Below, piece after piece: positions 52,336 through 57,386 of a stretch of DNA of 64,000 nt (the stretch's first letter is position 1; each line of letters begins with the position of its first letter). Location: NCBI RefSeq assembly GCF_009827635.1, contig NZ_WTYW01000001.1, forward strand, positions 576,001-640,000, given 5' to 3'. The position numbers and the translations under genes were made by a program. The stretch is from Parapontixanthobacter aurantiacus. Lineage in GTDB: Bacteria; Pseudomonadota; Alphaproteobacteria; Sphingomonadales; Sphingomonadaceae. The notes below the pieces were generated by a model. That model was not told where the DNA came from and searched no databases. It saw only the letters and a list, made by a program, of their open reading frames with translations.

Positions 52336-52399
52336 GCTACCCGGACGACCTCGCGGAGGTTTTCACCATCTCTTCGGACGAGGTTCGCTAGCACGCGCC

Positions 52400-53993: not shown

Positions 53994-56228
53994 TCAGAAG
54001 CGCACGCTAGCGCCTGCTACGAAGCGCCGGGGAGCCCCCGGTCTCAAACCCGAAGGCCGACGCGCTACAGCATAAGCATTGTCGAACAGATTATCCACTC
54101 TGGCAAACAAAGAGAGACCTTCCGTCAGCGCAAACCGGCCGGCGAGATCAAAGACAATCCTTTCGTCAATACGCTCATCGGGCGAAATATCCCCGCTACC
54201 TGCTTCGGTGCGTACTTGCGATGTGTAATTGGCGCTCACGAGCAAGGATGCCGGTCCAAATGCGAGCCCCGTTTCGGCATAGAATTGGTGGCGAGCGATG
54301 TAGGGGAGTGCGTCGCCCTGGGACACGGAACCGAAGAACGCACTCTCGAAACTGCTTTCGAATTGCGCGTCGGTGAGCGTGTAAACCACCGAGAAGGGAA
54401 TAGAAATTTCCCTACCCACTTGATGCTCCGTCGAAGCTGCCAGCTCCAACCCCTTCACGGAGACGGCCCCAGCATTGAACTGGTCGCCAATATCCCCGAC
54501 GCTACACCCCACGGATTGTGTGCAGTTTCCGAGCAGATTGGAATAGTCGGAATAAAACGCAATCGCGGAAGCTTGAATGGCGCCATTCCGAAAACGCCCA
54601 CCAAATTCATAGTTCCAGCTTTTCTCGGCTCGTGCCTCCGGATTTCCGGGCCCGGGGGGAGAAAAACCGCGCGAAGCGCCTGCAATCAACAGCACGTCTC
54701 CCAGTGCATAGGTTGCACCGAGTGCGGGAAGCCATTCGTCAACGTTGGTCTTGCGTATGCGCGCAGGTCCATCGAGACGAGCGGGGTCGGCTCGATCATA
54801 GTCCAGTCGAGTAAGGTCGATGCCTTCGTACCGAATGCCGGGTGTCAGAGTAAGCCCGCCGATCTCGATCCGGTTCTCCAGATAGAAAGCGATCGCCTTC
54901 GCCTTCGCCTCGCGATTGGCTTGAGCGCCCGGAGCCGTCTGCCGGACGAAAACGAGATCTCCATCCGTTTGCGTATAGAATTCCTCATTCTGCAACCGGT
55001 CTTCTTCATCCTCGTGATACCGGAGCGACGCAGCCAGGTTGTGCCTGACCTCGCCGGTCTCGAAAGGTCTTTCGAACGAAAGCTGGACGCCTTCGCTCCG
55101 ATAGACGCGGTTGTTGTTGCGAATGCGAAGGGCACCTTCAGCGCTGTCTGCGCCTCGCAGGATTGCGAGGCCTCTCTCGTTTGAGGAGGGAGCATCGAAA
55201 ACGGGTTGGATGGCATCAAAGCTGCCATCACCATCGAAATCGATGTCCTGTAGCTTCGACCAACTTCGTGTGAAATCGTTGCGATATAGGGTAACCGCGA
55301 ACTGCGTGTCGTCGGGCAACCGGAGGGTGCCGGTGAGCCGATATTGATCGTGCTCGCCCGTGAAAACGTCGCGTTGGCTGGCCGAATAGCGCCGGTACGG
55401 ATCGCTCGCGAAATCCGCGTCGGCGAGGCCCAAATAGGTTTCGTTCGCCTCAAGTTCGGATCGACCATAGGCGAACTCGAGGCGAGCATCGACCGGCGAA
55501 TCTGGGTTGGTGTGGACGGCGAAGCGGGCGCGATAGTCCTGACGTTGAAAACCGGTCTCGGCGCCGGGAAGCCCATCTATCGTCTTGAACCCGTCACTGC
55601 CTTGCTGATAGCTTTCTACCATCGCCCCGAAATTGTCGGCACTAGCGCCAATCCAGCCATGACCCTGATAATAGCCGCGAGAACCAAGCTGGCCGGAAGC
55701 TTCGCCAGCCAGGCTCTCGGTCGGTATCGGAGTCGATCGGAAATTGATGGCCCCGCCGATCGTGCGAGGACCATAGCGTACCGAGCCCGCGCCCTTGATC
55801 ACTTCGACTGCGTCCATTCGACCGATCGCGGGAAAGTAATACGCGGCCGGAGCGGCGTAGGGGGCAGGGGCAATGAGAACGCCATCTTCCATCAAGGTGA
55901 TGTTGCTCGACCGTTCGACCGGCGCGCCGCGCAAGCCAATATTCGGGAATAGCCCGAAACCGTCCTCTTCCTGAATGTTGACCCCCGGCACCTGGCGCAG
56001 GACACGGTTGACGTCACCATGCTCGAATTCGCTCAGTTCCTCGCCATCGATTAGGTCCGCCGCACCGGCCACTTCATACGCATCGATGCGACCGCCAATC
56101 ACGATAATCGATTCGCTTGGGTTTGCTATCCCGTCCTGCGATTGCCGCTCATCGGTCGGGTCTTTTTCATTGGCGTAAGCAGGGGCGGCCAGTGCAATTG
56201 CTATGAGCGAGGCGGTAGCGCGATACAT
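53994..56228 (-). CDS. TonB-dependent outer membrane receptor (FecA-like)
   Basis: A 744-residue receptor with signal peptide (ATASLIAIALAAPAYA), plug domain (VLRQVPGVNIQEEDGFGLF, FPNIGLRG and EVIKGAGSVRYGPRTIGGAI) and a 22-strand barrel ending in phenylalanine (FVAGASVRF). Overall pattern resembles the FecA/ferric dicitrate branch, but the extra N-terminal signalling domain is absent. The likely role is import of a metal chelate or other ligand. It follows the divalent-metal efflux genes, which is unusual for an importer; metal-linked regulation is possible. The leader contains a perfect 18-bp inverted repeat. Confidence 0.9.
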   Translation of the reverse strand: MYRATASLIAIALAAPAYANEKDPTDERQSQDGIANPSESIIVIGGRIDAYEVAGAADLIDGEELSEFEHGDVNRVLRQVPGVNIQEEDGFGLFPNIGLRGAPVERSSNITLMEDGVLIAPAPYAAPAAYYFPAIGRMDAVEVIKGAGSVRYGPRTIGGAINFRSTPIPTESLAGEASGQLGSRGYYQGHGWIGASADNFGAMVESYQQGSDGFKTIDGLPGAETGFQRQDYRARFAVHTNPDSPVDARLEFAYGRSELEANETYLGLADADFASDPYRRYSASQRDVFTGEHDQYRLTGTLRLPDDTQFAVTLYRNDFTRSWSKLQDIDFDGDGSFDAIQPVFDAPSSNERGLAILRGADSAEGALRIRNNNRVYRSEGVQLSFERPFETGEVRHNLAASLRYHEDEEDRLQNEEFYTQTDGDLVFVRQTAPGAQANREAKAKAIAFYLENRIEIGGLTLTPGIRYEGIDLTRLDYDRADPARLDGPARIRKTNVDEWLPALGATYALGDVLLIAGASRGFSPPGPGNPEARAEKSWNYEFGGRFRNGAIQASAIAFYSDYSNLLGNCTQSVGCSVGDIGDQFNAGAVSVKGLELAASTEHQVGREISIPFSVVYTLTDAQFESSFESAFFGSVSQGDALPYIARHQFYAETGLAFGPASLLVSANYTSQVRTEAGSGDISPDERIDERIVFDLAGRFALTEGLSLFARVDNLFDNAYAVARRPSGLRPGAPRRFVAGASVRF

Positions 56229-56255
56229 GTGAAGAATCCTTTCGAGACATTTACC

Positions 56256-56302
56256 AGCCTACTACTGCTATTGAGACGTATTCGCAATAGCAGTAGTAGG
56301 CT
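56256..56302. repeat. perfect 18-bp inverted repeat in the TonB receptor leader
   Basis: AGCCTACTACTGCTATTG (56256-56273) is the exact reverse complement of CAATAGCAGTAGTAGGCT (56285-56302), with an 11-base loop. It lies 27 bases before the receptor ATG (56228). On the + strand it is followed by TTTTAT and resembles a terminator, though no rightward gene precedes it. Read leftward it is a strong hairpin in the 5' leader of the receptor message, or a dimeric regulator operator. Confidence 0.75.
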
Positions 56303-56429
56303 TTTATGCCCATATTGGGTGAGGGCGGCTCGCGGTGCATCGGTTCTGGACTGCAATACCGTCCGCGACCGGCGCGCGATGAGGGCTCAGGGTCTGCGAA
56401 CGGCCGGGCAGGAACAGGCCAGCGAAAGC

Positions 56430-57386
56430 TTAATCACCGACCGTGTTTTTCCCGTTGTTGGGTGCCGGGTGGGCAGGGATCAGCGCATCATCGCAGTCCG
56501 TAGCGAGGCAGGGCTCGAAAGTGACATGTGCGATGCCGAAATCCTTTTCCAGCATCGCCCGCGCGCGTCGCTTGACTCCCTCGAATGCTGTTTGGGAGTA
56601 ATCAACAAGAGTGAGATGGGCTTCGAGCGCCCGGTGATGTTCTCCCAGATTCCAGACATGGACGTGGTGAATATCCTGCACGCCGCCAAGCGCGCGCAGG
56701 TTTTCAACCATCTGATCAAATTCCACCTCGTCCGGCACTGCTCCCATCAGCAGACGAACGGTTCGCGGTAGGAGCGTCGCGCCCTGCCAGATGACATAGG
56801 CCGCGATGATGAGAGTGATGATGAGATCGGCGACGACGAGATCGTATAGAATAATTAGCACTCCGGCGACGATCACACCGATCGAGGCCAGCGCGTCCGA
56901 AACGTTATGAAGGAAGGCAGCCTTCATGTTAATGCTGTCATGCGCGCCGCGATAGACAATGAATGCGGTGACGAGATCGATGACAAGTGCGATCCCGGCA
57001 ACCCAGATCACGGTCCAGCCTTCGACCGGCTGCGGCGCGGCGAAACGGTTGATCGCCTCAACGATCAGATAGAATCCGATGATCAGCAAGGTCGTCAGAT
57101 TGATGAGTGCGGCGACCACTTCTCCCTGGGCGTAGCCGAAGGTCATCAGCTTGTCCGCCGGACGCCGGCCTATGCGTCGCGCAAACCACGCAAGACCAAG
57201 AGAGGCCGCATCGCTGAAGTTGTGCAATGCATCCGCGATAAGCGCCAGTGACCCTGAAAGGATGCCGCCGACAATCTGGGCAAGGGTCAGGAGGACATTG
57301 ATCGCGACCGCGAGGATCAGCTGACGATCGCTAAGGTTTTCCTCGCCGTGACTGTGGCCAGCTTGATCGTGCGAGTGCGCCATCAC
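56430..57386 (-). CDS. cation diffusion facilitator (CzcD/ZitB-like)
   Basis: A 318-residue CDF divalent-metal/proton antiporter. It has six membrane helices, with the metal-binding pairs ALHNFSDAA in helix 2 and FLHNVSDAL in helix 5 (HxxxD type), and a C-terminal cytoplasmic domain with HHVHVWNLGEHHRAL and HVTFEPC. The His-rich start MMAHSHDQAGHSHGEEN can bind metal. It exports Zn, Co or Cd; which cannot be told. It overlaps the preceding gene by four bases and is the last member of a coupled four-gene unit. Confidence 0.93.
   Translation of the reverse strand: MMAHSHDQAGHSHGEENLSDRQLILAVAINVLLTLAQIVGGILSGSLALIADALHNFSDAASLGLAWFARRIGRRPADKLMTFGYAQGEVVAALINLTTLLIIGFYLIVEAINRFAAPQPVEGWTVIWVAGIALVIDLVTAFIVYRGAHDSINMKAAFLHNVSDALASIGVIVAGVLIILYDLVVADLIITLIIAAYVIWQGATLLPRTVRLLMGAVPDEVEFDQMVENLRALGGVQDIHHVHVWNLGEHHRALEAHLTLVDYSQTAFEGVKRRARAMLEKDFGIAHVTFEPCLATDCDDALIPAHPAPNNGKNTVGD

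Follow-up and report, generated by a model that had tools for sequence, protein, structure and literature searches.

The closest described counterparts of the site examined here are Fur boxes. In Sphingobium SYK-6, Fur1 bound the tonB2, fiuA and feoA-type promoters in EMSA (PMC7376174) and, by the description given there, these boxes are inverted-repeat operators that precede TonB-receptor and other iron genes, as does the present site. Unlike the alphaproteobacterial or Sphingomonadaceae Fur box, it has 18 perfect bp per side and reaches 11 bp past the ordinary core. Fur-type half-sites that continue in register past the minimal box are also a feature of the Fur hexamer arrays (GATAAT repeats) as presented in PMC7536154, but here the outer arms mirror each other and resemble the hexamer only weakly. 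TonB receptors and metal efflux genes occur together in Caulobacter too, where, as summarised in PMC4176598, one Fur-family regulator, Zur, controls zinc receptors and an efflux operon, and an imperfect 11-4-11 inverted repeat lies beside a Zur site; the leader studied here, in contrast, has no Zur motif. Template switching, as outlined in PMC8794818, creates perfect stems, extends them and gives multibase compensatory changes. The palindrome resembles such template-switch (quasipalindrome) hairpins in its one-step perfect stem, its extension and its multi-base paired changes, but those hairpins are in RNA genes whereas the seed here is apparently a repressor operator in bacterial DNA. No prior description of Fur-box palindromes of this kind was found in the literature searched. 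The comparisons below indicate that the locus is probably a Fur-type iron operator that overlies a FecA-like receptor's promoter and that inverted template switching has lengthened and maintained as a perfect repeat.

The window analysed is a 64,000 nt stretch of the Parapontixanthobacter aurantiacus genome. It includes a gene for a FecA-like TonB-dependent receptor of 744 aa (53994–56228, minus strand) with Pfam Plug and beta-barrel domains. The nearest solved structure was FecA (1pnz, E 2e-29, with the best stretch over the plug region), and the receptor scored far below the cut-off of the NCBIfam FecA model. Directly upstream on the same strand is a cation diffusion facilitator (CDF) exporter (56430–57386), followed further upstream by a protein with no Pfam match, a second CDF-type protein, a P-type metal ATPase and a CzcA-type pump. 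The leader therefore belongs to a TonB receptor beside metal exporters, as a sequence-only reading of this DNA had recognised. The palindrome (56256–56302, minus strand) occupies 47 bp, with perfect 18-bp arms and an 11-nt loop. On the forward strand the arm AGCCTACTACTGCTATTG is at 56256–56273 and its exact reverse complement at 56285–56302. Read on the gene strand, the arm upstream, away from the receptor, is AGCCTACTACTGCTATTG (56285–56302) and the receptor-side arm is CAATAGCAGTAGTAGGCT (56256–56273). Reading the arms inward gives 21-nt arms with one mismatch. The upstream arm diverges from the sequence at the same place in relatives, and the TA.TAGG part of the receptor-side arm weakly resembles it. 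The ATG of the receptor starts at 56228 on the minus strand, 27 bases from the arm (56229–56255), in agreement with the spacing and coordinates first reported, and a likely ribosome-binding site, AAAGGA, is present at 56237–56242.

Sequences within three mismatches of the arm were found at only two places in the 64-kb window, both of them the arms themselves, and 100 shuffles gave none. There was no second inverted repeat in the window comparable to the 18-bp palindrome. When 40 stretches of 20 kb from this genome (800 kb out of 2.9 Mb) were searched for perfect inverted repeats with arms of at least 11 bp and loops of 3–15, seven turned up, the largest having 12-bp arms. Simulating 400 kb with a third-order Markov model gave four, again with a longest arm of 12. 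The earlier statement that such a repeat is not expected by chance was borne out by the shuffles and by the 12-bp limit reached elsewhere in the 800 kb.

The central 25 bp of the palindrome (GCTATTGCGAATACGTCTCAATAGC, 56267–56291, minus strand) correspond to a family-wide Fur-type motif, and the 17 bp at its centre (TTGCGAATACGTCTCAA, 56271–56287, minus strand) resemble a Fur box, with three mismatches to TTGCGAATnATTCGCAA. A 25-bp pattern, GCTATTGCGAATNNGTCNCAATAGC, drawn from this locus and from L095, L148 and L149, was found with up to three mismatches in 156 of 397 family genomes, and the reversed-pattern control gave none in the 397 rows listed. The site in the window has no mismatch to this pattern, which was drawn partly from this very site. 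Among the matches listed, 110 sites were examined, one of them a copy of this locus and 109 others; G202, G242, G354, G393, G308, G152, G374 (repeats of one sequence), G197 and G304 were left out of the set, as were further copies of this locus, and L095 was scored apart. At 59 of the 109 other sites among the matches listed a receptor-plug homologue points away from the site, and at none does one point toward it; the plug match began within 250 nt in 57 of these 59 and farther away in two. At the remaining 50 sites among these matches a receptor was not seen in the adjacent stretch examined. Flanking open reading frames of at least 120 aa that start within 250 nt numbered 133 among the matches listed, 23 of the 109 sites contributing none. 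Pfam assigned 56 of them to Plug, four to PepSY_TM, three to PepSY_TM_like_2 (these assignments may overlap), two to Ferritin and one each to ExbB and TonB_C. An ArsC-family frame was seen in 13 of the same 133 (at L223 and others). ArsC is apparently a recurrent neighbour of siderophore-type receptors, and an ArsC-like frame was also noticed by eye in the P. aurantiacus genome near C1:124000.

The shorter pattern TTGCGAATnATTCGCAA was searched for, with up to four mismatches, before receptor homologues, in a region that began 300 nt upstream and ran 30 nt into the match. It was found at all six homologues with 66–75% identity, at nine of 11 with 44–55% identity and at 11 of another 13 named loci; the reversed control was found at none of the 30 over all three groups. 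This short pattern is unspecific in the P. aurantiacus genome, where it occurs at 21 places with up to three mismatches against one for the control, and 13 of those 21 places fall inside an open reading frame of at least 100 aa. BLAST searches with the leader also matched the core before unrelated receptors of other genomes, and the commonest letters in the 53 receptor-oriented sites among the matches listed are TTGCAATTGCGAATNATTCGCAATAGCA. The genome encodes Fur (PF01475, 131.7 bits; solved Fur 4raz, E 5.7e-53) as well as a second Fur-family protein that is weakly Zur-like (4mtd, E 4e-8). Identification of the palindrome centre as a Fur-type iron operator is thus well supported by comparison, and we infer that Fur binds the core. 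One observation that counts against an iron operator is that the 17-bp centre TTGCGAATACGTCTCAA also precedes an alginate-lyase gene in L150. The suggestion of a metal-responsive operator is therefore supported for iron and a Fur-type regulator, as the core marks iron-uptake genes family-wide, and not for zinc or cobalt, as the leader has no Zur-type site.

Two candidate promoters on the minus strand overlap the palindrome. In the first (A, 56259–56287), TTGCGA (56287–56282) is separated by 17 nt from TAGTAG (56264–56259), a register that is kept in relatives. In the second (B, 56265–56293), CTGCTA (56293–56288) is separated by 17 nt from TAGCAG (56270–56265), the same register as TTGCAA/TAGCAG in the 53 receptor-oriented sites among the matches listed. 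The two registers compete, and neither is a consensus match; a sigma-70 scan of 56150–56500 returned no promoter. With either register, transcription would begin where the gene-side arm ends or slightly beyond it, and the mRNA of the receptor itself would lack the hairpin. A riboregulatory hairpin in that mRNA, one of the initial suggestions, is accordingly not supported, given a putative promoter inside the palindrome and the lack of an Rfam match or a terminator-like site there.

Symmetry far past the regulator's site recurs at iron boxes in this one bacterial family. Across the 110 sites among the matches listed, the 12 flanking pairs past the core gave a mean of 3.51 matches, against 3.25 (sd 0.15) for re-paired flanks. 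The longest perfect run past the core was 0–3 in the other 109 sites among the matches listed and 11 at this locus. A second long run, of 10, was found in G157/L095 before another receptor and with different arms. Runs of 4–9 were absent from the sites scored among the matches listed, for which the chance expectation of runs of at least four is 0.43; that for runs of at least 10 over 111 sites is 1e-4. When a covariance model (R1) built from three long palindromes, and thus favouring such forms, was used to search the 397 genomes, 37 matched at E 0.01, many of them with short forms. Arm lengths were measured at 19 loci, a subset of the covariance matches. Perfect arms with differing outer sequence were found in L095 (20 bp), L284 (18 bp), L283 and L289 (17 bp each), L302 (15 bp) and L293 (13 bp), and shorter perfect arms of 10–11 bp in L303, L304 and L286. 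The arms of L282, which is before a receptor, are long but imperfect, and in L283 and L302 the half-sites are kept and the usual centre is lost. Plug or PepSY_TM genes adjoin five of the six long palindromes by Pfam, with Plug on both sides of L284, Plug at L283, PepSY_TM and Plug at L302, and PepSY_TM at L293. The 17-bp perfect palindrome of L289, which also has a Fur-like core, is at the start of a gene of fatty-acid-oxidation type (3HCDH_N, ECH_1), which is not an iron gene. An ATTAA(T/C) block before the core is common to L095, L282 and L284, which speaks for sequence-specific selection over random copying. Comparison of the neighbourhoods of L095, L284 and L282 within their genera (5, 41 and 5 genomes, including the genome in which each was called) gave no second perfect long palindrome, so a covariation series could not be built from them; two genomes of the L284 genus (G328 and G625) have a similar site that is imperfect.

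The locus itself is shared more widely. Nine loci titled Citromicrobium, Erythrobacter, Aurantiacibacter, Parerythrobacter, Pseudopontixanthobacter or Croceicoccus have 9.9 kb in common at 96–100% DNA identity, extending on one side as far as the fetched flanks reach, and two more genomes (G129 and G207) contain the leader at 100%. Together with the window these make up the 12 copies compared, which are close relatives; named and G-numbered entries overlap, some being the same assembly. The shared block ends at window position 52338. Beyond this point the five of the nine loci that are readable across the junction (L003, L004, L005, L006 and L020) all carry the same sequence, which is absent from the window; the junction is thus peculiar to this genome. 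In four of the 12 copies (L006, L007, L008 and L010) the receptor start ATG (56226–56228) is AGG; in these copies the receptor is perhaps silent or translated from a different start. A near DNA search of plasmids found no copies. A protein search returned five plasmid records for the receptor, four at 72–73% identity, and the leaders of two of these five records (H1 and H3) have a Fur-like site and lack the long arms. Viral contigs contained no receptor relative and no exact match to the middle 21 bases of the core.

The 18-bp arms are identical in 11 of the 12 copies. In the remaining one, L009, two C-G pairs have become T-A on both arms (56296/56262 and 56293/56265), and the gene-side flank is one base longer, with TT where the others have G; the TT pairs with the unchanged AA opposite, so that the arms are perfect over 20 bp. 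The probability that four random arm positions fall into two restoring pairs is about 3e-4, and the paired changes may represent one event. L009 looks like the product of a later template switch in which the gene-side arm and flank were replaced by sequence matching the other arm. Paired changes together with extension of the stem are the expected trace of a template switch, though selection for symmetry is possible. The L009 changes thus point the same way as the long perfect arms, which have no intermediates among the listed sites (0–3 against 10–11 pairs). The 71–75% relatives lack the arms, and the candidate source flank is weakly alignable. The receptor side, with its TA.TAGG, is closer to these relatives than is the other side, which weakly points to the far arm as the one first produced by copying; the L009 event would then run opposite to the direction of the first copying.

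Other explanations for the long arms were weighed against the same data. The strongest is that the outer arms are extra Fur hexamer half-sites in a 6-bp register, at which further dimers bind cooperatively and tighten repression of a receptor placed beside metal exporters. The shared ATTAA(T/C), which directly precedes GCTA(T/A)TG in L095, L282 and L284, is in keeping with this, as are the variant sequence of L009, TATTATTGCTATTGCGAAT, and arrays of the hexamer NAT(A/T)AT on which Fur is reported in PMC7536154. We nevertheless regard selection for an extended operator as possible rather than likely: the other 109 scored sites among the matches listed, receptor-linked ones included, extend by no more than three pairs with no intermediate lengths, and the outer hexamer of the window, ACTACT, is by eye a poor match. 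Control by a different metal regulator, either Zur or a sensor of Zn, Co or Cd belonging to the exporter cluster, would fit the nearby CDF, P-type ATPase and CzcA-type genes and the weakly Zur-like protein. This appears quite improbable given that, throughout the family, the core is a mark of genes for receptors, PepSY proteins and ferritin-like proteins. GTTA-N5-TAAC, with one mismatch allowed, matched twice in the window and on neither occasion in the leader, and a Zur site was rejected there.

A role in RNA was considered in a further form, namely that the hairpin forms in transcripts that run on from the exporter gene upstream and blocks or processes them, insulating the receptor from metal-induced efflux transcription. 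The end of the same-strand CDF gene, at 56430, is 127 nt upstream of the palindrome, the 47-mer folds very stably as RNA (−31.6 kcal/mol, z −9) and the paired changes of L009 preserve the stem. A search of 56150–56500 for intrinsic terminators (a G+C-rich stem with a loop of 3–8 followed by a T run) found none, which also speaks for this reading; an intrinsic terminator was rejected. Against the insulating role, the core is a DNA motif that is also found at receptor genes with no long stems, and two of the other long palindromes (L284 and L302) sit between divergent genes. An Rfam covariance search of the window detected only two tRNAs at gathering scores and nothing at the palindrome, and a riboswitch or other known RNA family was rejected. 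On balance an insulating RNA element seems unlikely, if somewhat less so than a different metal regulator. The least credible explanation is that a small mobile repeat left the palindrome as a scar or a copy of itself, as had also been proposed initially. The perfect arms and the occurrence of the whole block at 96–100% identity in loci of several genera might recall mobility, but all 12 copies stand at the same place within the larger shared block. When copies of the arm were counted across the 2.9-Mb genome with up to three mismatches, a single locus was found, and a MITE- or REP-like repeat was rejected in this genome.

We therefore return to a Fur-type iron operator extended by inverted template switching. 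When iron is plentiful, Fe-Fur would bind the 17–25-bp core and block RNA polymerase; under iron shortage the receptor would be made. The outer 11 bp on each side would be outside the ordinary site. They probably originated in a single inverted template switch for which the operator, itself a palindrome already, served as the seed, and in which one flank was overwritten by a reverse-complement copy of the other. Identity of the arms would have been kept by later template switches or by selection. More generally, and as a tentative proposal that we hold with less confidence than our reading of this locus, palindromic operators may seed template switching that yields long perfect palindromes in a single step, which are kept perfect and perhaps co-opted as multi-dimer Fur operators or as a cruciform or hairpin.

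For the locus, three loose guesses have given way to one testable reading, that of an iron operator over the receptor promoter. If template switching is the true origin, apparent compensatory changes in stems of this type need not mean RNA function, and genome-wide searches for regulatory RNA hairpins would need to treat them with caution. If operators do seed such growth, the Sphingomonadaceae Fur boxes would offer a natural series for following how an operator grows.
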